The notes beneath the pieces are model-generated. The model was not told the origin of the DNA and made no database searches. It worked only from the letters and a program-made list of their open reading frames with translations. A program made the translations under genes and the position numbers. This document shows positions 237-22,321 of a stretch of DNA of 43,527 nucleotides, one piece after another. This DNA comes from Deltaproteobacteria bacterium (GTDB taxonomy: Bacteria > Myxococcota_A > Polyangia > Polyangiales > Polyangiaceae), in NCBI GenBank assembly GCA_016875405.1, contig VGRJ01000029.1, positions 1 through 43,527 on the forward strand, read 5' to 3'. The stretch's first letter is position 1. Every line of letters begins with the position of its first letter.

Positions 237-1820
237 TCAGAAGCCCGGATCGAACTTCTTCGGCGGGGCGGCCTTCGGGGCAGGCGATTTCGGCGGCGAC
301 TTCGACGGCGGCGGCGGTCGCGGCGCGTGAGCGGGGGGAGCGTGCGGAGCCGTGGGAGGCTTCGTGCTCGCGGACGCGCTCGCCGAAGCGCTCGCGCTGA
401 CGGCCGGGGGGGGTGCGCTCGCGGCGGAGGCGGACGCCGGCGCGCCAGCGGCGAGCGTGGCCGAGGCAGAGGCCTCGGGCGGCGCAGCGAGGGCGCTCGC
501 GGGCGGAGAAGACGCGTCGGTAGGCGCGGGGATCGACACGGGCTCGGTCGACGCCGAAGGAGCGGCAGGCGCCACTGCCGAGCGTGTGAGGAAGTAGGCC
601 CCCGTCGCGACGGCAGCCGCTCCGACGAGGCCGACCACGAGCACCGCGGCCCCCTTCGAGCGCGCGGGCCCTGGCGGCGGCGTCGCGGCGATGCCTGCGA
701 CCGAGCCCATCGCACCGCTGTCGCCGAAGGGCTGCGGGGTCGCCTGCGGGACGCCATAGCCGGGATTCGAGGGGTAGCCACCGTGGGCGGCGTACGGGCC
801 GCTGTTTCCCGCGTAGGCGCCCGGCGCGACACCGGCCGCAGGATACGGCGTGAGATGGCCCGGCATGGGCGTGTCGATGTCGAGCGCCATGGTCTTCTGC
901 AGCGGACTCGGCGCCGGCATCCCCGTGAGCGTCGAGTATCCGCCCGTCACCATGCTCACGCCGAGAGCGTGCGCAAGGCCCTCGCTCAGCTCCTTTGCCG
1001 TCTGGTAGCGGTGGTCGGGATCGCGCTGCGCGGCGCGGTGCCACCAGCGGTCGAACGAATCGGGGAGCCCGGGGCACACGTGCGACGGGACCGGAGGCGC
1101 CTGCGTGACGATGCGGATCAACAGGTCGCCGAGCGCATCGCTCTTGAAGGGCAGCTCACCGGTCACGCAGCGAAACGCGACGACGGCGAGGGACCAGAGG
1201 TCCGCGCGCGAGTCGACCGCCTTGATGCCCTGCGCTTGCTCCGGGCTCATGTAGTACGGCGTGCCGAGCAGCGCCCCGGTGCGCGTGTTCGAATCGAGCT
1301 GGTTGGTGCGCTTCGCGACGCCGAAGTCGAGGACCTTCGCGATTTCGCCATCGTCGTCGGGCACGAGGAAGATGTTCTCGGGCTTGAGGTCGCGGTGAAC
1401 GATCCCCGCCGCGTGGGCTTTCATCAAGGCGCGGCTCACGCCGGCGATGATCCGACAGGTCTCGGTCGCGTCGAGCCGTCCGCGCGCGCGGAGACGCGAG
1501 TTCAGCGGCTCACCCTCGAGATACTCCATCGCGAGGTACTGCAAGCTGCCCTCGACCCCGAAGTCGAGGATCTGCACGACGTTGGGGGAACGCAGCGCCG
1601 CGGCGGCCTTGGCCTCACGCTCGAAGCGCTCGCGGACATCAGCCTTCTCGGCGGAGTCGGCGTGGATGAACTTAATCGCGCACGGGATGTCGAGCGCGAT
1701 GTGCTGCGCTGCCCACACGTCCCCCATTCCGCCCTGGCCCAGCACGCGGACGAGACGGAAACGGTCGGCGATGACTGCGCCTTCCCTCAACTCCACGAAG
1801 TGTCCCTTCCGACCGGCCAC
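237..1820 (-). CDS. Membrane-anchored Hanks-type Ser/Thr protein kinase
   Basis: A 527-residue eukaryotic-like kinase that should phosphorylate Ser/Thr of cytoplasmic or membrane partners. Visible kinase features: the Gly-rich loop LGQGGMG (about 27-33), the ATP-anchoring Lys50 (PCAIK), the catalytic loop HRDLKPEN (142-149), DFG (165-167) and SPE (192-194, in place of APE) after a Thr-rich activation segment. The kinase domain ends near residue 290. A Pro/Gly/Tyr-rich linker, one membrane segment (about 388-410) and a low-complexity Ala/Pro/Ser tail ending Lys/Pro-rich follow, so the tail should be periplasmic. The GTG at 1820 is the longest start. A GTG at 1796 has a better-spaced purine-rich site (GGAAGG) and is a good alternative. 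Substrates are unknown; the FHA proteins at 13-18 kb are plausible readers but are not genetically linked. Confidence 0.93.
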   Translation of the reverse strand: MAGRKGHFVELREGAVIADRFRLVRVLGQGGMGDVWAAQHIALDIPCAIKFIHADSAEKADVRERFEREAKAAAALRSPNVVQILDFGVEGSLQYLAMEYLEGEPLNSRLRARGRLDATETCRIIAGVSRALMKAHAAGIVHRDLKPENIFLVPDDDGEIAKVLDFGVAKRTNQLDSNTRTGALLGTPYYMSPEQAQGIKAVDSRADLWSLAVVAFRCVTGELPFKSDALGDLLIRIVTQAPPVPSHVCPGLPDSFDRWWHRAAQRDPDHRYQTAKELSEGLAHALGVSMVTGGYSTLTGMPAPSPLQKTMALDIDTPMPGHLTPYPAAGVAPGAYAGNSGPYAAHGGYPSNPGYGVPQATPQPFGDSGAMGSVAGIAATPPPGPARSKGAAVLVVGLVGAAAVATGAYFLTRSAVAPAAPSASTEPVSIPAPTDASSPPASALAAPPEASASATLAAGAPASASAASAPPPAVSASASASASASTKPPTAPHAPPAHAPRPPPPSKSPPKSPAPKAAPPKKFDPGF

Positions 1821-9637: not shown

Positions 9638-11302
9638 TCATCCGCCGCGACGATGCGGGACGTGGACGCCGCGCTCCTCGGCGCATCGGATCGCCGTTTC
9701 GTAGCCTGCGTCCGCGTGGCGGAACACGCCCATCCCGGGGTCCGATGTGAGCACGCGCTCGAGGCGGCGCGCGGCCTCGTCGGTCCCGTCGGCGACCACC
9801 ACCATGCCAGCGTGAATCGAGTTCCCGATGCCCACGCCACCGCCATGATGGAGGCTGACCCAGGACGCTCCGCTCGCTGTGTTGACCAGCGCGTTGAGGA
9901 GCGGCCAGTCGGCGATCGCGTCGGAGCCGTCCTTCATCGCCTCGGTCTCTCGGAAGGGCGACGCAACCGAGCCACAGTCAAGGTGGTCGCGGCCGATGAC
10001 GATCGGCGCCTTCACCTTGCCGCTCCGCACGAGCTCGTTGAAGGCGAGGCCAGCCTTGGCGCGGTCGCCGTAGCCGAGCCAACAGATGCGCGCCGGCAGC
10101 CCTTGGAAAGCGATCCGCTCCTTCGCCATCGAGAGCCATCGCGCGAGATCCTGGTCATCGGGCACGCACTCGAGGACCGCACGGTCGGTCGCCTCGATGT
10201 CGGCAGGATCTCCGGACAGCGCGACCCAGCGGAAGGGCCCCTTCCCCTCGCAGAAGAGCTCTCGCACGTAGGCGGGCACGAAACCGGGGATATCAAAGGC
10301 TCGCTCGCACCCCGCTTCCATCGCGCACGTGCGGATGTTGTTGCCGTAGTCGAAGGTCTCGCTGCCGCGCCGTTGGAGCTCGAGCATTGCCTCGACCTCG
10401 ACCCGCATCGAAGCCTTCGCGCGCACGACGTAAGCTTGAGGATCGGCGGCGCGCAGCTTCGCCGCGTCGTCGAGCGAGAGCCCAGCCGGAATGTAGCCGA
10501 CGAGCGGGTCGTGGGCGGCGGTCTGTTCGGTGACGAGCGCCGGAACGACGCCGCGACGGACGAGCTCGGGGTAGATCTCGGCGGCATTGGCGCAGAGCGC
10601 GAACGAGCGCGCTTCGCCAGCATCGGCGGCCGCTTGGACCCGACGTAGAGCCTCGTCGAGCGAGCCGACTTGCTCGTCGACGTAGCGCGTCGCGAGGCGT
10701 TTCTCGATTCGCGAGGGATCCACCTCGATCGAGAGCGATGGCAGGCCAGCGAAGGTGGCGGCGAGCGGCTGCGCGCCGCCCATCCCGCCGAGCCCCGCCG
10801 TGAGGAGCCAGAGCCCCGAGGTCGTGCCCGTCCTCGCGGCGTAGGCCTTGCGTGCCGCCACGAAGGTCTCGAACGTGCCCTGCACGATCCCCTGCGAACC
10901 GATGTAGATCCACGAGCCCGCGGTCATCTGCCCGTACATGGTGAGCCCGAGCGACTCGAGCCGTCGGAACTCATCCCAGGTCCCCCAGCGCGGCACGAGG
11001 TTCGAATTCGCGAGGAGCACCCGAGGGGCGTCCCGATGGGTGCGCACGCGCCCGACGGCCTTGCCAGACTGCACCAGGAGCGTCTCGTCGTCCGCGAGGT
11101 CGCGGAGCTCGCGGGCGAGCACGTCGAAGGCCTCCCACGAGCGCGCGGCCTTGCCCGTCCCACCGTAAACGACGAGGTCCTCCGGCCGCTCGGCGACCTC
11201 CGGGTCGAGGTTGTTGTGGAGCATCCGGAGCGCAGCTTCCTGCACCCAGCCCTTGCACGTGCGCGTCGTCCCTCGCGCCGCTCGAACCGTCCTCGTCGTC
11301 AT
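9638..11302 (-). CDS. hutU: Urocanate hydratase
   Basis: A 554-residue cytoplasmic enzyme of histidine breakdown that hydrates urocanate to imidazolonepropionate with a tightly bound NAD+. The length matches the family. Diagnostic stretches are present from end to end: [14 protein letters not shown] near the start, [13 protein letters not shown], the nucleotide-binding [26 protein letters not shown], the active-site region [20 protein letters not shown], and the C-terminal [24 protein letters not shown] lies 6 nt before the ATG. hutH, hutI and hutG are absent from the neighbourhood, so it stands alone here; the rest of the pathway would have to be elsewhere. Confidence 0.97.
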
Positions 11303-11366
11303 CGCATCCTCCGCCGCGTTCCGCGCGGTCTTCGCGTGTCTCGTCGTTTCGCTCGCCGCGCTCGCC

Positions 11367-11723
11367 TCAGACGTCGAGGTCGGTGCTGGTCATCACTTCG
11401 TGGAACTCGATGACGTTCGGCCCGGAGAACATCTCCTTCGGCGCGCGATTCTTGTGCGCTTCGGCGAATGCCTCGCTTTGCGTCCAGGCGACGAAGTCGT
11501 CGAGCCGGCGCCACCAGGTCTTCACCTCATAGAAGCCGCGCGCTGCGGGGTCGTCCACGAACGTTGCGGTGGCGCGATCGAACTTCAGCGGGCGCGGCCG
11601 GTGCACCTCGTTCCGAACGAAGCCTGGCGCCGTGTCCACGAGGTGGGCGCGATGCCGGAAGCGCTCCTCGAAATCGATCTCGTGTCCCTCGGCCACCGGG
11701 ATTCGGTTTGTCACCACGATCAT
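11367..11723 (-). CDS. IsdG/HmoB-like antibiotic-biosynthesis-monooxygenase-fold protein
   Basis: 118 residues, a single ABM (ferredoxin-like) domain. The ATG at 11723 begins directly at the first beta strand ([10 protein letters not shown]). A longer frame from 11783 has no similarity upstream. The three residues that make the catalytic site of IsdG-type heme-degrading monooxygenases appear in the right places: Asn6, Trp80 and His90, with the W-x9-H spacing inside [16 protein letters not shown]. That supports oxidative heme cleavage and iron release in the cytoplasm. ABM-fold proteins are diverse and some only oxidise aromatic metabolites, so heme as substrate is likely but not shown. No heme-uptake genes are adjacent. 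It lies 64 bp downstream of hutU and is divergent from the dehydrogenase gene. Confidence 0.82.
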
Positions 11724-11823
11724 GGCTTTGGGGTACGGGGTCGAGCGCCGCGGCGCAAGCCCGGGCGACATGGTGAGCCGCACTCTGGATGCGGTGCGAC
11801 GCGATCCGAGCTAGGTCCAAGGG

Positions 11824-12711
11824 ATGTCGACATTCGACGCTCGCAGCACCGCGGAACAAGTCTCCGAAGGCATCGACCTCCGGGGCAAGACCTGGCTCGT
11901 GACCGGTTGCAACTCCGGCATTGGCCTCGAGACGGCGCGAGTTCTTTCGCTGCGGGGGGCGCACGTCGTCGGGGCAGCGCGCACCTTGGAGAAGGCAAAA
12001 GAGGCGCTCGCAGGTTTGCCGAACCCGGGCTCGCCGCTCGCCTGCGAGCTATCCGACCTCGGCTCCGTTCGTGGCGCGGTCGAGGCGATCCGCTCGATGG
12101 GGACCGCGCTCGATGGGGTCATCGCCAACGCCGGCATCATGGCGCTGCCGAAGGCCGAGACGAAGTACGGGCTCGAGCTGCAGTTCCTGACCAACCACGT
12201 CGGGCACTTCGCGCTCGTGACCGGCATCGACGACCTCATGACCGACCTGGCGCGCGTCGTGGTCGTGAGCAGCGGAGCGCATCGCTACGCGTCCGAGCGG
12301 GGCCTCGAGCTCGACAACCTCGACGGAGCGACCGACTACGAGCCCTGGCGCATGTACGGACGCTCGAAGCTCGCCAACATCCTGTTCGCGCGCACGCTCG
12401 CGCATCGGTTCGCCAAAGGCGGCAGCCAGCGGACGGCCTTCTCCCTCCACCCGGGGGTCATCCGTACGAACCTGACGCGCCACATCGCGGACGTGGACAC
12501 CCTCCTCGCGCCGATGAAAAGCAGCATGAAGACCGTGGCGCAGGGCGCGGCGACACAAGTGTACGTCGCGACTCAGCCGGGCCTCGAGGCGCACTCCGGC
12601 GCCTACTTCTCCGACTGCGCGGTCGCTCGCACGATCCCGTCCGGCACCGACGATGCGCTCGGCGAGGTGCTTTGGGGCCGCACCGAAACGCTGCTGGCAG
12701 CGCTGGGGTGA
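11824..12711 (+). CDS. Short-chain dehydrogenase/reductase, retinol dehydrogenase-like
   Basis: A 295-residue NAD(P)-dependent oxidoreductase with a classical Rossmann fold. The cofactor loop VTGCNSGIG (about 26-34), the structural motif NAG (IANAGIMA), the catalytic Ser (VVVSSGAHR) and the Tyr-x3-Lys pair (YGRSK) are all visible, followed by the conserved HPGVIRTNL segment. The long substrate loop with LDNLDG and the order of motifs place it with the WW-oxidoreductase/retinol-dehydrogenase-like group, for which bacterial substrates are mostly unknown. It is divergent from the IsdG-like gene, and AAGGG precedes the ATG. The rplS promoter starts 25 bp after its stop, so it is probably monocistronic. 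Confidence 0.92.
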   Translation: MSTFDARSTAEQVSEGIDLRGKTWLVTGCNSGIGLETARVLSLRGAHVVGAARTLEKAKEALAGLPNPGSPLACELSDLGSVRGAVEAIRSMGTALDGVIANAGIMALPKAETKYGLELQFLTNHVGHFALVTGIDDLMTDLARVVVVSSGAHRYASERGLELDNLDGATDYEPWRMYGRSKLANILFARTLAHRFAKGGSQRTAFSLHPGVIRTNLTRHIADVDTLLAPMKSSMKTVAQGAATQVYVATQPGLEAHSGAYFSDCAVARTIPSGTDDALGEVLWGRTETLLAALG

Positions 12712-13200: not shown

Positions 13201-13228
13201 GAGAAACCGTCGAAGCGGCGGGTTTCTC
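13201..13228 (+). terminator. Possible terminator after rplS
   Basis: GAGAAACC (13201-13208) and GGTTTCTC (13221-13228) form an 8-bp stem with a 12-nt loop, followed by TATTGATTT. A second small hairpin (CGGG/CCCG, 13181-13191) lies just upstream. The T-run is short, so efficiency is uncertain. The position, 48 bp after the rplS stop and before the FHA cluster, fits. Confidence 0.5.
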
Positions 13229-13321
13229 TATTGATTTCACGCCCACCTCAGGGTCTATGCTGCGGTGTCGTGTCTCCTCCCGACGTGCTTCGTGCGTCGG
13301 CGTCCAAGGAGCATCGAGGAC

Positions 13322-14227
13322 ATGATGACGAAGTGCCTCCGCTGCGGTTCCGACAACCTTCCTAGCGCCGGACAGTGCCAGATCTGCGGCGCGCCGCTCC
13401 CCGGAGGAGCTCCCAAGCCTCCTGGGCCTCCGTCGATGGGAGGCCTACCCGGTTTCGGTCCGCCGCCCGCGGCGCCACCGCCGCCGGGTTTCGGGGCACC
13501 GCCAGGCTTCGGGGCACCGCCAGGCTTTGGAGCCCCGCCCGGCTTCGGCCCACCCCCCGGACCGCCGGGCGCTCCCCAGGGCTTCGGCCCTCCCCCCGGA
13601 CCGCCGGGCGCTCCCCCGGGCTTCGGCCCTCCCCCCGGACCGCCGGGCGCTCCCCTGGGCTTCGGCCCACCCCCCGGGGCGAGCCCGTTCGACAGCGCCA
13701 GGGGCCCCGGGGACGCCGGCGGACCATCGGGTCGTCCGGGCTATCCGCCGCCTCCGGCGCCGTCCGCCGAGCCGCCGGCGCCGCCCCGACGCCAGAGCTC
13801 ACCGCCCCCGGCCCCGGCTTCGGCGATGGTGCCGCCCGCGCCAGGTTCCGACCGTGGTCGAGGACCGACACCTCCATCGGCGAGCAGTGACTCCGAGCCG
13901 AGGCGCGTTCTTGCGGGCTTCGTCTATTCATTCCAGGAAGACGCGTTCGGCAAGCACTGGCTGCTCCACGAAGGCGAGAACCTCGTCGGGCGTGCCGAGA
14001 CCAACGTCAAGTGCGAGATCCCAGTCGCGCACGGCACGACCTCGACGCGGCACGCCACGATTCGCTGCTCGAACGGCTCAGTCTCCATCCAGGACATGAA
14101 GTCGACGAACGGCACCTACGTGAACGGCAGGCGCCTCGACCCGAACATCCCGGTCCAGCTGAACGACGGCGATAAACTCCGGTTCGGAGGCTTCACCGTG
14201 ACCCTGGTCGTCGCACAGCGGAGCTGA
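13322..14227 (+). CDS. Zinc-ribbon/FHA-domain signalling protein
   Basis: 301 residues with three parts. A short zinc ribbon sits at the N-terminus (Cys5, Cys8, Cys19, Cys22). A long Pro/Gly/Phe low-complexity linker (about 30-190) is built from repeated GFGAPP and GFGPPPGPPGAP units. A C-terminal FHA domain (about 215-298) has the phosphothreonine-binding signature: GR in ENLVGRAETN, STRHA, and NGTYVNGRRL. FHA domains bind phosphothreonine on kinase substrates, so this is likely a cytoplasmic adaptor. The ATG at 13322 has AAGGAG upstream at good spacing and starts exactly at the zinc ribbon. It is the first gene of a co-directional set with the PP2C phosphatase (18-bp gap) and the FHA-ABC protein. 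Its binding partner is unknown. Confidence 0.9.
   Translation: MMTKCLRCGSDNLPSAGQCQICGAPLPGGAPKPPGPPSMGGLPGFGPPPAAPPPPGFGAPPGFGAPPGFGAPPGFGPPPGPPGAPQGFGPPPGPPGAPPGFGPPPGPPGAPLGFGPPPGASPFDSARGPGDAGGPSGRPGYPPPPAPSAEPPAPPRRQSSPPPAPASAMVPPAPGSDRGRGPTPPSASSDSEPRRVLAGFVYSFQEDAFGKHWLLHEGENLVGRAETNVKCEIPVAHGTTSTRHATIRCSNGSVSIQDMKSTNGTYVNGRRLDPNIPVQLNDGDKLRFGGFTVTLVVAQRS
13541..13657 (+). repeat. Three 39-bp in-frame tandem repeats
   Basis: Three nearly identical 39-bp units start at 13541, 13580 and 13619, each encoding a 13-residue GFGPPPGPPGAP plus one variable residue (Q, P, L). A partial fourth unit begins at 13658. Shorter 18-bp GFGAPP units precede them from about 13487. The unit length is a multiple of three, so copy-number change would only alter linker length. 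Confidence 0.85.
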
Positions 14228-14245
14228 AGGGACGCGTAGCTCGAG

Positions 14246-15337
14246 GTGACCGCCGGCGGCATGCAGCTCGAGTTCGCGTCGGCGACCGATCCCGGTCTCG
14301 ACCCCCACAAGCGAGTCAATGAGGACTCGTACGGGCAGGTCGACACGCCGGTCGGTCGCATCTTCGTCGTCTGCGACGGCATGGGCGGTCACGTCGGCGG
14401 CAAGCAAGCGAGCGAGCTCGCGGTCAAGACGATCGTCGACCTGGTCTCGGCCGCGCACCCCTCCGACGAGCCCGTCCGCGCCCTGGTCGCGGCGATCGAA
14501 GAGGCGGCGCGTCGCGTGTACGAGCTCGGCGGCCCAGGCGTCAACCTGCAGCGGCCCGGCTCGACGTGCGTCGCGGCCCTCTTCAAGGAGGGCATGCTCG
14601 AGCTCGCGCATGTCGGGGACAGCCGCGCCTACATGATCCGCAGCAAGCAGATCCATCGCGTGACCCGCGATCACTCCTACATCCAGGAGCTGATCGACTC
14701 GGGGAAGATCTCTGAGAAAGAAGCCTTCGGACATCCCGAGTCGAACAAAATCACGCGCGCGCTCGGCATGACGCCGACTGTCCAGGTCGAGACGCGCAGC
14801 GAGCCGCTCGAGCTCTTCGACGGTGACGTGTTCATCCTCGCGACGGATGGGCTCACCGATCTCGCGCGGAACGAGGAAATCCTCGTGACCACGCACTCGC
14901 TGCTGAAGACGGCCGACGTCCAGGCCGCGTGCAACGAGCTCGTCGCGCTCGCCAATCGCCGCGGTGGGCATGACAACATCACCGTCCAGGTGGTCCGCGT
15001 GCAGCGCGCAGGACCCAAGCTGACTCAGACGCAGGCGGGCGGACCCGTGCGGAGCCGCTCGCTGCCGCCGTCCACGGTCGTCCAGGGGCCACCTGGGCAC
15101 ACCCAACCGGCGCTCACTCCGACGCAGGTCGACGCGGGCTACGGCGCTCCCGCCTCGAGCCTGCCGATGGGCCCCCACAGCGCGCCGCCGTTTGGCGGGC
15201 CGCACGGGCCACCGCCATCGTTGCCCGCGCCCTCGGCGCCGCCCGGTCCGAACCCGCTCATGAACGTCGTCCTCGCGATGGCGGTGGTGATCGGTCTGCT
15301 GCTCGCGGCGCTGGTCTGGGCGCTGAAGCTGCGGTAG
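14246..15337 (+). CDS. PP2C-family Ser/Thr protein phosphatase with C-terminal membrane anchor
   Basis: 363 residues. The PP2C/PPM catalytic domain (about 6-250) removes phosphate from Ser/Thr with two metal ions. Metal and phosphate residues are visible in KRVNEDS, VVCDGMGGHVGG (Asp44), LAHVGDSRAY, ILATDGLTD and GGHDNITVQVV. A Pro/Gly-rich linker follows, then one membrane segment at the very end (VVLAMAVVIGLLLAALVWAL). The enzyme is therefore tail-anchored with the catalytic domain in the cytoplasm. GTG 14246 is the longest start; ATG 14261 begins nearer the domain and is possible. Lying between two FHA genes, it probably resets the phosphorylation they read. No kinase gene is in the immediate cluster. 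Confidence 0.93.
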   Translation: MTAGGMQLEFASATDPGLDPHKRVNEDSYGQVDTPVGRIFVVCDGMGGHVGGKQASELAVKTIVDLVSAAHPSDEPVRALVAAIEEAARRVYELGGPGVNLQRPGSTCVAALFKEGMLELAHVGDSRAYMIRSKQIHRVTRDHSYIQELIDSGKISEKEAFGHPESNKITRALGMTPTVQVETRSEPLELFDGDVFILATDGLTDLARNEEILVTTHSLLKTADVQAACNELVALANRRGGHDNITVQVVRVQRAGPKLTQTQAGGPVRSRSLPPSTVVQGPPGHTQPALTPTQVDAGYGAPASSLPMGPHSAPPFGGPHGPPPSLPAPSAPPGPNPLMNVVLAMAVVIGLLLAALVWALKLR

Positions 15338-15419
15338 CCCCAACGCTTCGGGGTCACGGCCACCGCGAAATCGTGGCAACCTGTCGCCCCGCGAGTTTCG
15401 CGTACCTGGAGACCGACGC

Positions 15420-18389
15420 ATGATCCCGAGCTTCGGCAAGCAAACCCTCTCGATCGGTAGCCACCCCCAGTGCGATGTCGTCCTCCAAGGGCACGGCGTC
15501 GCCTCCGAGCACGCCCGCATCACGAACCAAGGCGGCGGCAAGCTCGTCCTCACGCACCTCGGCGCTGGCGCGACGGTCGTGGATGGGCGCCAGATGGGCG
15601 CGGGCGAAGCGACCGCGTTTGACTTTCGTCAACAGTTCCGCATCGGCGATGCCGCGCTCCCGCTCGACCACCCGGCGATCACCTCGATGCTCGTCTCGGT
15701 CGGGACCGCGAGCGCCCCCCCGGGCCAGCTCATCATCGGTCGCGATCCGGCGCGAAGCTCGCTCGTGATCGGCCACCCGAGCGTGTCGAGCCTCCACTGC
15801 ACGGTCGCGCTCGATCGTCAGATGGTGACGGACCACGGCTCGACGAGCGGCACCTACCTCGCGGGACAGAAGCTCACGCCGAACCAGCCGGCGCCGCTGC
15901 CTCGGGACGGTGCGATCTACCTCGGCCCCGTGCCGGTCCGCCTCGACTTCCTCCAGAACCTGGCGATGCAGCTCCGCGGCGGAAGCCCCGAGCCCGTCCT
16001 GCCGGCCGGCGGCTACGGCGCCGCTGCCCCCGCCGCGGACACGGGCGGCGTCCGCAAGCACAAGACGGTCTTCGGGCAACTCGATTTCGGGGCGGGCGGC
16101 CCGGCGGTCCGAACGATCGGCCGCACGCCTGGCAACGACATCGTGGTCACTCACCCGCAAGTGTCGAGTCGGCACGCGCAGGTCGAGCAGATCGATGGAC
16201 GCGTCTTCGTCACCGACCTCGGCAGCGCGAACGGCACCCACGTGAACGGGCACCGCCTCGTCCCGGGTCAGCGCGTCGAGATAGCGAACGGGCAGAAGAT
16301 CTACGTCGGTCCGATGCCGCTGCAGCTCCAGCTCGGGGCCGGCGGCGCGGTCGAGGTGGTCAACGAGGCGTTCGCCGAAGAGCGCTGGGCGGGCCGGCCG
16401 CTCTACGAGATCGAAGCGTGGCAGCTCTACCTCGAGGTACCGGATCGCGACAACAAGGCGAAGATGAAGGTGCTGCTCGACAACGTCTCGTTCAAGGCGT
16501 TGCCCGGCGACATGATCGCGCTGATGGGACCGAGCGGCGCGGGCAAGACGACGCTGCTCCTGACGCTGAACGGCTACCTGCCTCCGACGCAAGGCCTCGT
16601 CCGCATCAACGGGGAGGACCTCTACTCGATCTATGACCTACTCCGCGGCTCGATCGGCTACGTCCCCCAAGACGACCTCGTGCACGCCGAGCTCACGGTG
16701 TACGAAGCCGTCCGCTACAGCGCGAAATTCCGCCTGCCCCCCGACTACAGCGACCAAGAGATCGACGCCCGCGTCCAGCAGACGCTCCGCGACCTCGGCC
16801 TCGACTCGATCCAGCACCTCGAGATCGGCGCGCCCGAGAAGAAGGTGCTCTCGGGCGGCCAGCGCAAGCGCGTCAACATCGCGCTCGAGCTCGTCACCGA
16901 TCCGATCATCCTCTACCTCGACGAGCCAACGTCTGGTCTCGCGGCGGACGATGCCGCGAGCCTCATCCAGCTCCTGAACGGCCTGACCACGGCCACCGGC
17001 AAGACGATCATCATGACGATCCACCAGCCGGCGAAGGAGGAGTACGAGAAGTTCACGCACGCGCTGATCCTCGGCTACGGCGGCGTGCCGATGTTCTTCG
17101 GGCCGACAATCCCGGACAGCTATCGGTTCTTCAGCGGCTTCAAGGCGAGGCAAGGCGCATACGTCGAACCGTCGCCGAGTGAGGTCGTCGACAACCCACG
17201 CGATATGTTCGGCAACATCGCTGAGCGCGAGGGGCCGATCCACAAGCAGCTCCTCGCGCAGAACCCGAACACGCCCCGTTCGGCCGCGCGTAACCAGGCC
17301 GCGATGGTGTGGCGCGCAGAGTATTACTCCGACGCGAACCCGACCTATCAGCGCATGTACACGGGACGTCGCTCCGTCGGCACGGCCGAGGGGCAGCGGG
17401 GCATCCCGGCATCTCGCCCGCAGACCAAGGGGCAGTTCGGCCTCCTCCTCTCACGCTACTACCGGACCAAAGTTCGCGACGTGAGCGGCACGGCGATCAT
17501 GTTCGCGCAGGCTCCCATCATCGGCGTGCTGCTCGCGGTGGTGTTCGGCGGTCAGGCCGACTCGACTCCAGCGTGGTGCCTCGGAGCCCTTCAGGATCTC
17601 GCGAAGCGCAAGGGTGCGAGCTCGACGACCGACATCCTCTCGAAGCTCTCGACGACGCAAGACCACACGGCGGCGATCTTCTTCATGGTGGTAAGCTCGA
17701 TTTGGTTCGGCACGTCGAACGCGGCCCGCGAGATCGTGCGCGAGCGCGCGATCTACGTACGTGAGCGCATGGTGAACCTTGGGCTCTTCAACTACGTGAT
17801 AAGCAAGTTCGTCCTGCTGTCGTTGTTCTGCGTGGCCCAGTGCACGATGCTGCTCGCGATCGTGTTCTTCTCGCTGGGCTTCCACGGCGGCGCCGCGGCG
17901 TTCGGACAAGAGCTCGGCGCGCTGGTCGCGACGGCGGTGACCTCGGTGGCGGTAGGCCTCCTGCTCTCGACGCTCGTCACCTCGTCCGAAGCGGCGATGG
18001 CGCTCACACCGATCGCGCTGATCCCTCAGGTCGTGCTCGGCGGCCTGATGGTCCCGGCGACGACGATCCCGAAGCTCTCGGCGCTGATGTACGCGGTCCC
18101 CGCGCGCTGGGGCTTCGAAGCCGCGGTCGTACCCGAGCGCCACGCCATCGCGAGCGAGCCGGCGTGGGTGCTCGACCTCGGCTCACCTCAGCTGACGAGC
18201 GCCGACGACTTCGTGAAGTCGGGCCGCTTCGAGTGCGCGACGGCGCAGGTCGCCTCGAATACCTTGAACGGCGCGTGGGGCTTCACGACCCACGAGCAGC
18301 CTTTCATCCCGTACGCGGTCCTGGGCGCGACCACCTTGCTCGTCTTCGTGGTGATCCTCGTAACGCTGCGTCGACGCGACCAGGTGTGA
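15420..18389 (+). CDS. Triple-FHA ABC transporter, ABCG-like half-transporter
   Basis: 989 residues. Three FHA-like domains come first. The first (about 5-90) lacks the consensus Arg (SIGSHPQCD). The second (about 101-180) has GRDP and SSLH but STSGT in place of NGT. The third (about 230-305) is canonical (IGRTPGND, SSRHAQ, NGTHVNGHRL). An ABC ATPase follows: Walker A GPSGAGKTT (about 370), signature LSGGQRKRVN (about 477), Walker B ILYLDEPTSGL (about 500). An ABC-2 type membrane region with about six helices (about 688-985) ends the protein. The order ATPase then membrane domain is that of ABCG half-transporters. FHA plus ABC resembles mycobacterial Rv1747, whose activity is tuned by Ser/Thr kinases. 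The substrate is unknown; lipid or lipo-oligosaccharide export would fit the family. GGAG precedes the ATG. Confidence 0.93.
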   Translation: MIPSFGKQTLSIGSHPQCDVVLQGHGVASEHARITNQGGGKLVLTHLGAGATVVDGRQMGAGEATAFDFRQQFRIGDAALPLDHPAITSMLVSVGTASAPPGQLIIGRDPARSSLVIGHPSVSSLHCTVALDRQMVTDHGSTSGTYLAGQKLTPNQPAPLPRDGAIYLGPVPVRLDFLQNLAMQLRGGSPEPVLPAGGYGAAAPAADTGGVRKHKTVFGQLDFGAGGPAVRTIGRTPGNDIVVTHPQVSSRHAQVEQIDGRVFVTDLGSANGTHVNGHRLVPGQRVEIANGQKIYVGPMPLQLQLGAGGAVEVVNEAFAEERWAGRPLYEIEAWQLYLEVPDRDNKAKMKVLLDNVSFKALPGDMIALMGPSGAGKTTLLLTLNGYLPPTQGLVRINGEDLYSIYDLLRGSIGYVPQDDLVHAELTVYEAVRYSAKFRLPPDYSDQEIDARVQQTLRDLGLDSIQHLEIGAPEKKVLSGGQRKRVNIALELVTDPIILYLDEPTSGLAADDAASLIQLLNGLTTATGKTIIMTIHQPAKEEYEKFTHALILGYGGVPMFFGPTIPDSYRFFSGFKARQGAYVEPSPSEVVDNPRDMFGNIAEREGPIHKQLLAQNPNTPRSAARNQAAMVWRAEYYSDANPTYQRMYTGRRSVGTAEGQRGIPASRPQTKGQFGLLLSRYYRTKVRDVSGTAIMFAQAPIIGVLLAVVFGGQADSTPAWCLGALQDLAKRKGASSTTDILSKLSTTQDHTAAIFFMVVSSIWFGTSNAAREIVRERAIYVRERMVNLGLFNYVISKFVLLSLFCVAQCTMLLAIVFFSLGFHGGAAAFGQELGALVATAVTSVAVGLLLSTLVTSSEAAMALTPIALIPQVVLGGLMVPATTIPKLSALMYAVPARWGFEAAVVPERHAIASEPAWVLDLGSPQLTSADDFVKSGRFECATAQVASNTLNGAWGFTTHEQPFIPYAVLGATTLLVFVVILVTLRRRDQV

Positions 18390-18467: not shown

Positions 18468-21254
18468 ATGACCCGGCTCCGGCGACTCACCGCTCCGACG
18501 GCGCTCCTCTTTGCGCTCTTGTCGAGTGTGGCCTCCGCGCAGGACGCGACGGAGCGACCTCCCGGGGCTCCGCCTGCGGCGCCACCGAGTGAGGCCCCTT
18601 CGGCGCCGCCGTCCGAACCTCCTGCCGACGCGCCGCGCTTCGACTCACGCGGGCGCCCGATCGCTCCCGAGCCCTCACGCCCCGTTACGGTGACGTTCCC
18701 CGAGCGCACCAACGACGTGCAGCCTCGCTACACCGACGAGGCCAAATCCGCGGCGGTGCAAGGCGCCGTGATCCTGAAGATGACGATCAACGTCGACGGC
18801 AAGGTCGTCGAGGCGTCGGTCGACCAGGGCCTCGGCTACGGGCTCGATGAGTCCGCCCTCGAGGCCGCGCGTCAGCTTCAGTTCGTGCCGGCGAAGCGGA
18901 ACGGGAAGCCCTTCAAGGCGACGATTCGCTACCAGTTCGACTTCACGCTGAAGGAGGAAGTCCGCGAGGTCGTGACCGACGACGGCGCGCTCCGCGGCAC
19001 GCTGCTCGACAGGGACGATGAGCGCGCCATCGCGGGGGCTCGGCTCACGATCGAGCGTGTCGACGCGCCGACGGCCGTGCCTGCGCCGCTCGAGCTCGTC
19101 AGCGACGCGAAGGGCGTCTTCGTCGTGCCGCGCCTTCCACCGGGCGACTATCGCCTCCGCATCGCCGCCGAGGGCTTCGACGCGCTCGAGGTCACCGAGT
19201 CTGTCGTCGCGCGACAGGAAAACCTCGCGCTCTACCGACTCTCGCGGACCGGAGCCTCGAAGGACCGCGCATCGCTCGGCGTCGTGGAGATCGACGTGAC
19301 CGGAGAGCGTCCCCCGCGCGAGGTCACGCGCCGTAGCATCGAGCGCCGCGAGCTCGAGCGCATCCCCGGCACCAACGGCGATGCGCTGCGCGCAATCCAG
19401 AATCTCCCCGGCGTCGCGCGGCCCCCCGGGCTCGCAGGCGCCCTGCTGGTTCGAGGCTCGGCCCCGCAGGACACGCAAACCTTCATCGACGGCACGTTCG
19501 TCCCGCTCATCTACCACTTCGGCGGGCTCTCGAGCGTCGTCCCCACCGAGCTCCTCAGCAAGATCGACTTCTACCCTGGCAACTTCAGCGCCCGGTACGG
19601 CCGCGCCACGGGCGGCATCGTCGACGCAGGGCTCCGCGCGCCGAGGACCGACGGGTTTCATGGGCTCGCGCAGATCGACCTCATCGACGCGCGCGCGTTC
19701 GTGGAAGGTCCGGTTCCGAACACCGACGGCAAGTGGTCGTTCGCGGTCGCGGCCCGACGAAGCTACCTCGACGCGTGGCTCGGTCCCGTCCTCGAGTCGG
19801 CAGGCGCAGGCGTGACGCAAGCGCCGGTCTATTACGACTACCAACTCATCCTCGACGGGAAGCCGAAGCCCGGCCACCACCTGCGGACCTCGTTCTACGG
19901 TTCGGATGACAGCCTCGAGCTCTTGCTGAACGAACCCTCCGCCGACGAGCCCGCGCTGTCCGGCAACTTCGGGCTGAAGACCCAGTTCCAGCGGATGGCC
20001 GTGCAGTACGACGTCGAGCTCGGCAACGACCGCCGCTTCGACGGAACCTTCTCGCTCGGTCGCGACTTCCTCGAGTTCGGGCTCGGCAACCTGTTCTTCA
20101 AGCTCAAGTCGCTAAGCTTCTACGGTCGCGGCGAGTACACTTCGAAGCTCTCGCAGAAGGCCACGATGCACGTCGGCCTCGACATGCTCGTCGGCCGCTA
20201 CGACGTCGCGGTGCGCCTCCCCGCGCCGCCGATCCCGGGCCAGCCGCCGAATCAGCCGTTCTCGACGCGCACGGTCCAGACCTTCGCCGAGGAGGGCACC
20301 AACTACCGCCCCGCCGGCTACGTCGAGTTCGAGTTGACACCCGTCAAGAGGCTCCGCCTCGTGCCCGGGGTTCGCCTCGACTACGACAAGTGGATCAAGC
20401 GCTTCGACTTCGCGCCACGCATCAACGGACGCTACGCGTTCAACGAAGAGTTCCCCCGGACGACCGGCAAGTTCGGCATCGGCGTGTTCTATCAGCCGCC
20501 GACGCCGCAGCAGTCGATCCCGCCGCTCGGGACGCCGGGCCTCGCGTCAAACCGCGCGATCCACTACAGCCTCGGCGTCGAGCAAGACGTGACGCGGCAG
20601 GTGGAGGTCTCGCTCGAGGGCTTCTACAAGCAGCTCGACGATCAGGTCGCCGCCAAGCCGTCGCTCACAGGAGCGCGCGTCGTCTACGACAACTCGACCA
20701 TCGGCTACGTCGTCGGCGGCGAGCTGCTCGTGAAGTACAAGGCCGACGACCGCTTCTTCGGTTGGCTCGCCTACACGCTCTCACGCTCGGCGCGGCAGGA
20801 CGGGCGCGACGCGGAAGAGTACCTCGTCAACTTCGATCAGACGCACATCCTCACCGCTCTCGGGAGCTACCGCCTCGGCGGAGGTTGGGAGTTCGGCGCG
20901 AGGTTCCGCGTGATCAGCGGCAACCTCGTGCAGCCCAACGTCTGCGACGCGACCTCCGCGAGCTGCGATCCGAGCCGCATCGGAGGCCTCGTGTACGGCG
21001 CGACCGGCGCCTATACCCCGCTGCCCTTCGGCGCGCGCGGGAGCGAACGGTTGCCGTTGTTTCACTCGCTCGACATCCGCGTCGACAAGGCGTGGCAGTT
21101 CAAGCACTGGAAGCTCTCGGCGTACCTCGATGTGCAGAACAGCTACAACAACCAGAACGTCGAGGGGATCTCGTACAACTTCAACTACACGCGGCGACAA
21201 TACGTGACCGGTCTTCCGATTCTGCCGAGCATCGGCCTCCGAGGAGAGTGGTGA
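18468..21254 (+). CDS. TonB-dependent receptor with an N-terminal TonB C-terminal-like domain
   Basis: 928 residues. The signal peptide ends near SVASAQ (about residue 25). A Pro-rich stretch (30-60) is followed by a domain with the features of the TonB C-terminal domain (about 83-165: QPRYTDEAKSAAVQGAVIL, DGKVVEASVDQGLGYGLDES, LQFVPAKRNGKPF). Next come a carboxypeptidase-regulatory-like beta domain (about 172-262), the plug (RIPGTNGDALRAIQNLPGV, VLLVRGS-like LLVRGSAPQDT, SARYGRATGGI) and a 22-strand-type outer-membrane barrel to the end. Receptors normally bind TonB through an N-terminal TonB box, and carrying a TonB-like domain on the receptor itself is unusual. The substrate is unknown. 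The stop overlaps the start of the following lipoprotein gene. Confidence 0.9.
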   Translation: MTRLRRLTAPTALLFALLSSVASAQDATERPPGAPPAAPPSEAPSAPPSEPPADAPRFDSRGRPIAPEPSRPVTVTFPERTNDVQPRYTDEAKSAAVQGAVILKMTINVDGKVVEASVDQGLGYGLDESALEAARQLQFVPAKRNGKPFKATIRYQFDFTLKEEVREVVTDDGALRGTLLDRDDERAIAGARLTIERVDAPTAVPAPLELVSDAKGVFVVPRLPPGDYRLRIAAEGFDALEVTESVVARQENLALYRLSRTGASKDRASLGVVEIDVTGERPPREVTRRSIERRELERIPGTNGDALRAIQNLPGVARPPGLAGALLVRGSAPQDTQTFIDGTFVPLIYHFGGLSSVVPTELLSKIDFYPGNFSARYGRATGGIVDAGLRAPRTDGFHGLAQIDLIDARAFVEGPVPNTDGKWSFAVAARRSYLDAWLGPVLESAGAGVTQAPVYYDYQLILDGKPKPGHHLRTSFYGSDDSLELLLNEPSADEPALSGNFGLKTQFQRMAVQYDVELGNDRRFDGTFSLGRDFLEFGLGNLFFKLKSLSFYGRGEYTSKLSQKATMHVGLDMLVGRYDVAVRLPAPPIPGQPPNQPFSTRTVQTFAEEGTNYRPAGYVEFELTPVKRLRLVPGVRLDYDKWIKRFDFAPRINGRYAFNEEFPRTTGKFGIGVFYQPPTPQQSIPPLGTPGLASNRAIHYSLGVEQDVTRQVEVSLEGFYKQLDDQVAAKPSLTGARVVYDNSTIGYVVGGELLVKYKADDRFFGWLAYTLSRSARQDGRDAEEYLVNFDQTHILTALGSYRLGGGWEFGARFRVISGNLVQPNVCDATSASCDPSRIGGLVYGATGAYTPLPFGARGSERLPLFHSLDIRVDKAWQFKHWKLSAYLDVQNSYNNQNVEGISYNFNYTRRQYVTGLPILPSIGLRGEW

Positions 21255-22321
21255 TGCGCCTTCGTCGTTGGGTCCTCGCTTCGCTCGTCACGCTCGGCGT
21301 CGTCGTGAGCTGCGCCCCCGGGTTCGATCCGCCGAGCTCCGTCACCGGCCTCCGCGTCCTCGGCGTCGACCTCGACACGCCCTACGCCGCGCCCGGCGCA
21401 ACGGTGACGTTTCGAATGACGGTGACCGACGGGCTGCGCGACGAGGAGGGAAACCCGAGGCCCCTTCAGCTCGCGTGGATCGGCGGCTGCTTCAACCCGC
21501 AGGGCGACCAGTACGTTCTCTGCCTGCCGCAGCTCGCCGACGTGTTCGCGGGTGGCTTTGGCTCGGGGACGTCGAGCCTCGTGAAGCTCGCGACGGCCGC
21601 CCCCGAAGACGACGGCGAACCGAGCGCACACAGCTTCACGCTCGAGCTTCCTGCCGATCTCATCTCGAGTCGCCCGGCGCCCACCGAGGGACCTCGCTAC
21701 GGCGTCGGCTATGTGTTCTTCGCCGCCTGCGCCGGCACGCTCGCGCCTGCCGACTTCTCGGTCTCGACGAAGACTCCTGAGTTTCCGCTCCTGTGCCTCG
21801 ACGCGGACGGCAGCCCTCAAGGCGCCGAGAGCTTCGTGCCCGGTTACGCGCAGGTCTACGCCTTCGCCGACGGTCGTACGAACGACAACCCTCCGGTCGC
21901 GGCGCTGACGCTCGACGGGATGGAGCTCCCATCCGACCCGGCGCTCGCGCCGACCGTCCCGCGCTGCGCCGTCACCGAGGACGAGCGGCGGAAGGCCGGC
22001 TGCGCGAAGAAGGACCTCCTCGAGACGTGCAAGGAGCACGCGCTCGACGCGACCATCCCCGACGCGGCCGAGCCGCTCTACGAGACCGGGAGCGAGATCG
22101 GCGGCGCGCTGCGCGAGGCGGTCTGGGTGAACTACTACGCCGACGGTGGTGAGCTCGACGGTGCGGTGCGCCTCGTGAGCGACTCGTCGAAGGGCTACTT
22201 GCCCGAACACAACGCGACGTGGCTCGCTCCCTCGCAGCCGGGGCTCGTCTCCGTGTGGGCGTTCGCGCGCGATCAACGCGGCGGCCAGACCCCGATCCGC
22301 GGCTACGTGCGCGTCGAGTGA
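21254..22321 (+). CDS. Lipoprotein coupled to the TonB-dependent receptor
   Basis: 355 residues, not a family I recognise. The N-terminus is a lipoprotein signal (LASLVTLGVVVSC, lipobox VVSC). The mature protein opens with a beta-rich stretch (VTGLRVLGVDLDTPYAAPGATVTFRMTV), like an Ig/PKD-type fold, and contains many Cys residues (GGCFNPQ, YVLCLP, FFAACAG, PRCAV, AGCAKKDLLETC). The C-terminus ends as another beta sandwich (GYLPEHNATWLAPSQPGLVSVWAFARDQRGG). The ATG overlaps the receptor stop by one base (TGATG), so it is translationally coupled and probably a surface-exposed or periplasmic partner in substrate capture. Its last 19 bases overlap the end of the convergent protease gene. Confidence 0.85.
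   Translation: MRLRRWVLASLVTLGVVVSCAPGFDPPSSVTGLRVLGVDLDTPYAAPGATVTFRMTVTDGLRDEEGNPRPLQLAWIGGCFNPQGDQYVLCLPQLADVFAGGFGSGTSSLVKLATAAPEDDGEPSAHSFTLELPADLISSRPAPTEGPRYGVGYVFFAACAGTLAPADFSVSTKTPEFPLLCLDADGSPQGAESFVPGYAQVYAFADGRTNDNPPVAALTLDGMELPSDPALAPTVPRCAVTEDERRKAGCAKKDLLETCKEHALDATIPDAAEPLYETGSEIGGALREAVWVNYYADGGELDGAVRLVSDSSKGYLPEHNATWLAPSQPGLVSVWAFARDQRGGQTPIRGYVRVE

Follow-up and report, generated by a model that had tools for sequence, protein, structure and literature searches.

The system closest to the one described here is Rv1747 of Mycobacterium tuberculosis, a half-transporter in which N-terminal FHA domains, a nucleotide-binding domain and a membrane domain are joined in one chain, and which is paired with the kinase PknF. 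Work on the Rv1747-PknF operon describes PknF as a positive modulator of the transporter (PMC3908365). As told in a review, phosphorylation by PknF promotes condensates of the N-terminal region of Rv1747, and PstP reverses this (PMC9312465). A comparable cluster lies in a 43,527 nucleotide stretch of DNA (the window) from a Deltaproteobacteria bacterium of the Polyangiaceae (contig VGRJ01000029.1 of assembly GCA_016875405.1). Three genes in tandem on the + strand, at 13322-18389, encode a Zn-ribbon/FHA adaptor, a PP2C phosphatase and a triple-FHA ABCG-type half-transporter. Their sequences suggest a phosphothreonine-controlled ABCG-type exporter resembling Rv1747, with a linked phosphatase and with its kinase supplied from elsewhere, a reading to which we give a probability of roughly 0.5. 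FHA-ABC transporters are already known; what appears to differ here is the arrangement with a linked PP2C and adaptor.

To our knowledge, few myxobacterial Ser/Thr kinases have known outputs. The kinases themselves are very many in these bacteria, with 102 Pkinase matches in the window genome (96 above the Pfam cut-off), and a cluster of phosphothreonine readers, a phosphatase and an exporter represents a defined, testable output. The cluster also bears on the reach of the Rv1747 mechanism beyond mycobacteria, and on whether a linked phosphatase can replace a linked kinase in FHA-ABC systems. Among the matches listed in the open-licence PubMed Central (PMC) literature, judged by title, there was no paper on this myxobacterial cluster, and a search of the same literature for FHA, von Willebrand factor and ABC transporter in myxobacteria found nothing.

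The transporter (989 aa, 15420-18389) has Pfam matches to FHA in three stretches (141.9 bits in total), ABC_tran (109 bits) and ABC2_membrane (92 bits), and a hydropathy plot gives six segments, two of them overlapping. Genes were called as stop-to-stop open reading frames with home-made domain profiles and without a gene finder. The nucleotide-binding domain (residues 353-505, 16476-16934) carries GPSGAGKT, LSGGQRKRV and LDEPTSGL, which we take to be the Walker A, signature and Walker B motifs. It precedes the ABC-2 membrane domain (residues 672-904, 17433-18131), placed by Pfam and the hydrophobic segments. This order, with intact ATPase motifs, is that of an ABCG-type half-transporter, and the fusion of N-terminal FHA domains to both other domains in one chain is that of Rv1747. 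Members of the ABCG/PDR group (ABCG2, ABCG1, CDR1) share the order and are the lead PDB sequence matches, with a Foldseek match to ABCG2 at E 5.6e-10. However, identity to them is about 20% and the window transporter has FHA domains. The agreement in fold is mostly sequence-based because the transporter model is poor (TM-scores 0.13-0.23; mean predicted local distance difference test score, pLDDT, 48.5) and usable for the FHA region only. The ABCG kinship and the intact ATPase motifs suggest that the protein exports its substrate. It is single copy: its own score is 2226 bits, and the next best of 62 matches in the genome, which cover ATPase or FHA segments, reaches 75.5 bits.

The three FHA domains are not equivalent. 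Phosphothreonine is bound by an Arg, a Ser, a His and an Asn of the FHA fold. FHA1 (about residues 8-66, 15441-15617; Pfam FHA 38.4 bits) is degenerate, with GS for GR, A for S and no NG. It is still recognizable, its best PDB match being an FHA protein (E 0.022) and its model showing predicted strands in blocks of pLDDT 76-87. FHA2 (about residues 100-166, 15717-15917) keeps the Arg, Ser and His and has the Asn replaced (STSGT). FHA3 (about residues 228-297, 16101-16310) has the full signature of R235, S249, H252 and N271. We aligned these residues across 45 orthologs, 39 from family loci and six from two other families of the order (truncated L110 was excluded; labels such as this are our own). 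All four FHA3 residues are kept in all 45. FHA2 keeps Arg, Ser and His in every ortholog and has lost the Asn in every one (Ser in 41; Thr, Ala or Gly in four). FHA1 has lost the Arg throughout (Ser in 42, Ala or Thr in three), retains the Ser in one of 45 and the His in all. Since the pattern is common to the 45 orthologs, it must be old and maintained and not a product of decay in the window genome. The first FHA domain is complete in the distant homologs L079-L081.

What if the FHA domains are phosphate-independent scaffolds and the transporter is constitutive? The loss of the Arg from FHA1 in all orthologs and of its Ser in 44 of 45, together with the universal loss of the Asn from FHA2, is what such an explanation would lean on, and FHA1 and FHA2 probably do serve as structural or oligomerisation domains. 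For the protein as a whole we consider it improbable, as the binding residues of FHA3 are invariant, the adaptor FHA keeps its signature and a PP2C gene is linked. An earlier note, made from the window sequence alone, had called the three genes consecutive and co-directional, FHA3 the only complete FHA domain and the transporter a likeness of Rv1747. The first of these points is borne out by the open reading frames, Pfam and hydropathy, the second holds across the ortholog alignment and the third agrees with the domain comparisons that follow.

FHA3 matches solved FHA domains of Rv1747 both in sequence (6ccd, E 2.7e-5; 6cah, E 2.3e-4) and in fold (Z 10.9 and 11.0). It has 16 PDB sequence matches, the best to the plant FHA protein 1uht and others to GarA, OdhI, EmbR, the Rv1747 FHA domains and ArnA. 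Its predicted fold matches MDC1, DgcB, EmbR, ArnA, GarA, OdhI and Rv1747 (Z 10.9-13.1); the fold comparison covered FHA3 and the transporter part of the protein, and FHA1 and FHA2 barely. Differences from Rv1747 are also plain. Rv1747 has two FHA domains whereas there are three here, one of them complete; a PP2C and an adaptor adjoin the window transporter in place of a kinase; and the linker between FHA2 and FHA3 (residues 186-217) is short and modelled with low confidence.

Related FHA proteins offer a comparison for this linker. GarA and OdhI take theirs from a phosphorylated N-terminal tail. In DgcB, likewise, the ligand is described as the protein's own N-terminal region (PMC6733907). FHA3 is close to all three in sequence and fold, and it too has an invariant Thr N-terminal of its binding loops. 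Across orthologs the FHA2-FHA3 linker is variable both in length and in composition, apart from the motif K-H-[KR]-T-[VI]-x-G immediately before FHA3, which in the window protein reads K-H-K-T216-V-F-G (residues 213-219, 16056-16076 on the + strand). T216 is invariant in the 45 orthologs, and T216 and G219 are both invariant in the 39 family loci. However, T216 opens a predicted FHA3 strand (216-222) and is not part of a free tail, which makes the same mechanism doubtful. The residue may mark the point where the FHA3 structure begins, or it may be a candidate phosphosite; given where the model places it, we do not claim the latter.

Is the motif a ligand shared by all linkers in the system? 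The pattern [KR]T[VIMLS][LIMF][GDEN] occurs in 45 of 89 transporter open reading frames, once in each, against a mean of 0.91 and a maximum of 4 in shuffled sequences (duplicates and non-orthologs included). Elsewhere it is not general, and a shared motif was rejected on that ground. The FHA-only reading frames give eight matches in five of 65 (shuffle mean 0.48, maximum 2), all from L149, L166 and L168; the PP2C frames give four in 47 (shuffle mean 0.28, maximum 2); and the 46 vWA frames give none. The FHA-only and PP2C counts are small, if above the shuffles. The eight matches in the FHA-only proteins of L149, L166 and L168 lie in linkers, are of the KT[VIS]LD or RTVL[EDG] type and are possible phosphothreonine ligands. 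The pattern counts, and those of the PP2C motifs below, include some contigs twice (L083/L044, L085/L043, L086/L060 and L084/L137), whereas the 45-ortholog alignment is free of these duplicates.

The adaptor (301 aa, 13322-14227, with an alternative GTG start at 13265) consists of a Zn-ribbon, a proline-rich linker and an FHA domain at residues 221-289 (Pfam FHA 66 bits). The binding signature is complete, with GR, S..H and STNGT kept. A CxxC-x10-CxxC pattern (CLRC-x10-CQIC) is visible in the zinc ribbon, which scores 19.9 against Zn_Ribbon_1, below the Pfam cut-off of 25. The two-CxxC pattern is absent from some adaptor reading frames cut by contig ends and also from L084/L137, L142, L149 and L166. 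Proline-rich near-repeats (GFGPPPGPPGAP) are seen in the translation of the linker at 13451-13678. The adaptor gene is followed after 18 bp by the PP2C gene (14246-15337, 363 aa), which in turn precedes the transporter gene by 82 bp. Its start is GTG at 14246, although we judge the ATG at 14261 likelier. The phosphatase scores 64.4 bits against PP2C_2 and 56.9 bits against PP2C in Pfam, and 213.1 bits against the NCBIfam Stp1/IreP model, under the cut-off of 230. It matches five of five permissive catalytic patterns for the metal-binding Asp motifs, which are complete in 41 of 47 PP2C rows. A single hydrophobic segment at residues 341-359 forms its C-terminal membrane anchor, and a hydrophobic stretch after the catalytic domain is visible by eye in 46 of the 47 rows, L118 being the exception.

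The source genome (contig C29 is the window) comprises 5.02 Mb in 218 contigs, is 99.13% complete and has nine PP2C_2 and 32 FHA matches; the closest relatives that carry a name are metagenome bins assigned to the Polyangiaceae or Myxococcales. Five of 16 relative loci are clear orthologs (57-75% best-segment identity), and the other 11 match around the ATPase domain only. Transporter matches at E <= 1e-60 were found in 65 of 282 genomes drawn from the phylum. Neighbourhoods were compared at 40 family transporter loci from 39 genomes (G026 contributes two; G011:C619, G025:C303 and partial second matches of G020 and G029 were left out), with distances taken between domain matches and a limit of 6 kb. 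A same-strand PP2C lies upstream of the transporter within this limit in 29 of the 40, so the gene order that the earlier note had proposed checking in related genomes is conserved. The adaptor is followed directly by the PP2C in the window, in G001, G003 and G004, and in G164 of another genus. At 16 of the 40 loci the gene for ribosomal protein L19 is found no more than 6 kb upstream, and at others somewhat further off, which implies that the loci occupy the same chromosomal place. Among the 11 without the PP2C, five are limited by their contigs, with less than 5 kb of sequence upstream (L046, L061, L065, L082, L117). A SpoIIE search of 20 genomes added only a PP2C-like match beside the transporter match of G011.

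These figures bear on whether the genes are merely unrelated neighbours in tandem. Outside the family the sample comprised 40 loci from 35 of 46 matching non-family genomes and three further genomes (several flanks are short; L163 is counted here and also listed as a paralog), and 32 of these FHA-ABC genes have no linked PP2C, as chance would predict. Nevertheless, 29 of 40 family loci keep a same-strand PP2C although the 5 Mb window genome has only nine PP2C_2 matches, and comparable sets recur in other Myxococcota families in another order and in some cases with a kinase. We therefore reject a chance tandem on conservation and regard it as very improbable. The eight loci outside the family with a same-strand PP2C within 6 kb are L071, L073, L118, L149, L150, L154, L166 and L168; L156 was not counted because its PP2C is on the opposite strand.

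The three genes of the window are not the whole system, however. At 25 of 40 family loci the 6 kb upstream of the transporter contain a further gene, placed between the adaptor and the PP2C where both are present. The three-gene cluster of the earlier note is thus real and conserved but incomplete, and we do not take it as a self-contained unit. The product of the fourth gene is mostly about 750-850 aa. A signal peptide was recognized by eye, and the protein also has a conserved stretch some 510 residues long, one membrane helix and a linker rich in Gly and Pro. Of the 25 genes, 20 continue in frame into an FHA domain, nearly always with the full signature (L058 is degenerate), and three (L056, L060, L143) are followed by one in a different frame; no FHA was found after the gene in L057 and L110. 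Resemblance of the conserved region to a vWA domain is weak. Among 14 family members VWA_2 matches five (best E 5.1e-6) and VWA_3 and VWA one each, at E <= 0.1 and with overlap between members, and the matches of L048 are below the Pfam cut-offs. A profile of the region had no PDB match at E <= 1, and an AlphaFold model of one sequence (mean pLDDT 34.9) was not used.

In 38 of 59 relatives the profile finds a match, though a weak one in G015 and G025, and it finds none in the window genome. One clue to the fate of the vWA gene is that the sister genomes, G001-G004, carry it and the transporter on separate contigs. Moreover, the sister genes with a readable end (L099, L100, L101) lack an FHA domain, while L116 is cut. 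Together these features indicate that the window's lineage moved and trimmed the vWA gene. Its absence from the window genome would reflect either loss in that species or a gap in the assembly.

Sets with similar parts are found outside the family. All four genes occur in order in L071. L118, L166 and L168 have an FHA-ABC gene, a CxxC-bearing FHA protein, a secreted-type vWA-like FHA protein and a PP2C in another order, with kinases nearby. Their vWA-like region is seen by eye; Pfam matches are below the cut-off in L166 and L168 and absent in L118. L150 and L156 pass the Pfam VWA_2 cut-off (40.9 and 36 bits against 27), and L149 has no Pfam vWA match. A pairing of this kind has been described for ArnA-ArnB of Sulfolobus, in which a zinc-domain/FHA protein is paired with a vWA protein, and FHA3 matches the ArnA FHA in fold (Z 12.1). 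Unlike ArnB, the vWA-like part in the family is secreted, membrane-anchored and usually has an FHA of its own, and the genes for a PP2C and a transporter lie close by. The window itself has no vWA gene, and the zinc ribbon of its adaptor is assigned by CxxC pattern.

Where does the kinase come from? The cluster contains no kinase gene, and in this it departs from the Rv1747 type of operon; a plain copy of Rv1747-PknF was rejected for that reason. The Ser/Thr kinase gene of the window (240-1820, - strand) is 11.5 kb from the adaptor gene. A same-strand kinase is within 6 kb at just four of 40 family loci (L060, L062, L072, L138). The earlier note's picture of a phosphatase without a kinase therefore holds for the window and most of the family, but it is no rule. 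Of four family paralogs, two (L077 and L078) carry a kinase gene immediately upstream (10751-12391 and 10039-11412), which is the family's closest approach to the Rv1747-PknF arrangement; in L075 a kinase lies 4.4 kb downstream. Nine of the 40 loci outside the family also have a nearby same-strand kinase. With 102 Pkinase matches in the genome, a kinase could be supplied in trans.

We picture the switch as follows. An unlinked Hanks kinase would phosphorylate Thr residues on the transporter, its partners or both. FHA3 and the adaptor FHA would then bind phosphothreonine, thereby assembling, clustering or gating the transporter and leaving it active, clustered or blocked. The PP2C, held at the same membrane, would remove the phosphates and reset it. 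In much of the family the vWA-like protein, with its secreted region, its membrane helix and, usually, a putatively cytoplasmic FHA, may couple a signal from the envelope to this FHA network, an input that the window's genus would have dropped from the cluster. The recurrent set is probably a real switchable export system, as predicted from its gene content. A more ambitious reading is a Myxococcota envelope-signalling module in which an ABCG exporter answers, via its single complete FHA, to a Zn-ribbon FHA adaptor, a membrane PP2C and a secreted vWA-like receptor whose FHA would be cytoplasmic, with a kinase in trans; the window's lineage would have a stripped version without the receptor. 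This remains tentative, and we hold it a little less firmly than the reading of the window cluster itself.

Several observations count against this picture, and above all against a phosphatase devoted to this transporter. Six of the 11 family loci without a PP2C have at least 5 kb of upstream sequence (L051, L054, L057, L062, L063, L141), so their misses are real; in L062 a PP2C is found further upstream, behind two kinase genes. Outside the family the 32 of 40 loci without a PP2C point the same way, although some are limited by contig ends. Nine PP2C_2 matches against 102 kinase matches in the window genome mean that one PP2C may serve many kinases. Finally, G007 has L19, the adaptor, the vWA-FHA gene and the PP2C together (L102 = G007:C124, 5996-11261), yet the transporter was not found there at E <= 1e-60. 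The word dedicated, which the earlier note used of the PP2C, is accordingly weakened by this genome and by the transporters without a linked PP2C.

Perhaps, then, the FHA proteins and the PP2C form a general envelope signalling hub, with the transporter one client that shares the operon by chance. G007 fits this. So do G021, G029 and G034, where parts of the gene set and the transporter are on different contigs, and the differing gene order among families. Still, the transporter adjoins the PP2C at 29 of 40 family loci, and the FHA3 signature that it carries is invariant. Losses can also coincide: in G015 no transporter was found at E <= 1e-60, and the vWA profile gave just a weak, partial match (2.7e-12). 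A hub with a chance client is in our view unlikely, if much less so than constitutive scaffolding, and we keep to the phosphothreonine-controlled exporter.

The surroundings of the cluster offer some further detail. Scans for promoters and terminators are not decisive. They gave one promoter-like site (11 of 12; 0.5 expected), which is upstream of L19, and five terminator-like sites (3.9 expected), including one that separates the L19 and adaptor genes at 13207-13221. A gene for a TonB-dependent receptor (18468-21254, + strand), with an N-terminal TonB_C domain before the plug and barrel by Pfam, starts 78 bp after the transporter gene. It follows the transporter at nine of 40 family loci, and the two are possibly on one transcript. 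The N-terminal half of this receptor matches the myxochelin receptor model MxcH (67.4, far under the cut-off of 925). The 355-aa protein encoded at 21254-22321 has no NCBIfam match. Its N-terminus (VVSC) resembles that of a lipoprotein, and the ATG of its gene overlaps the receptor gene's stop codon.

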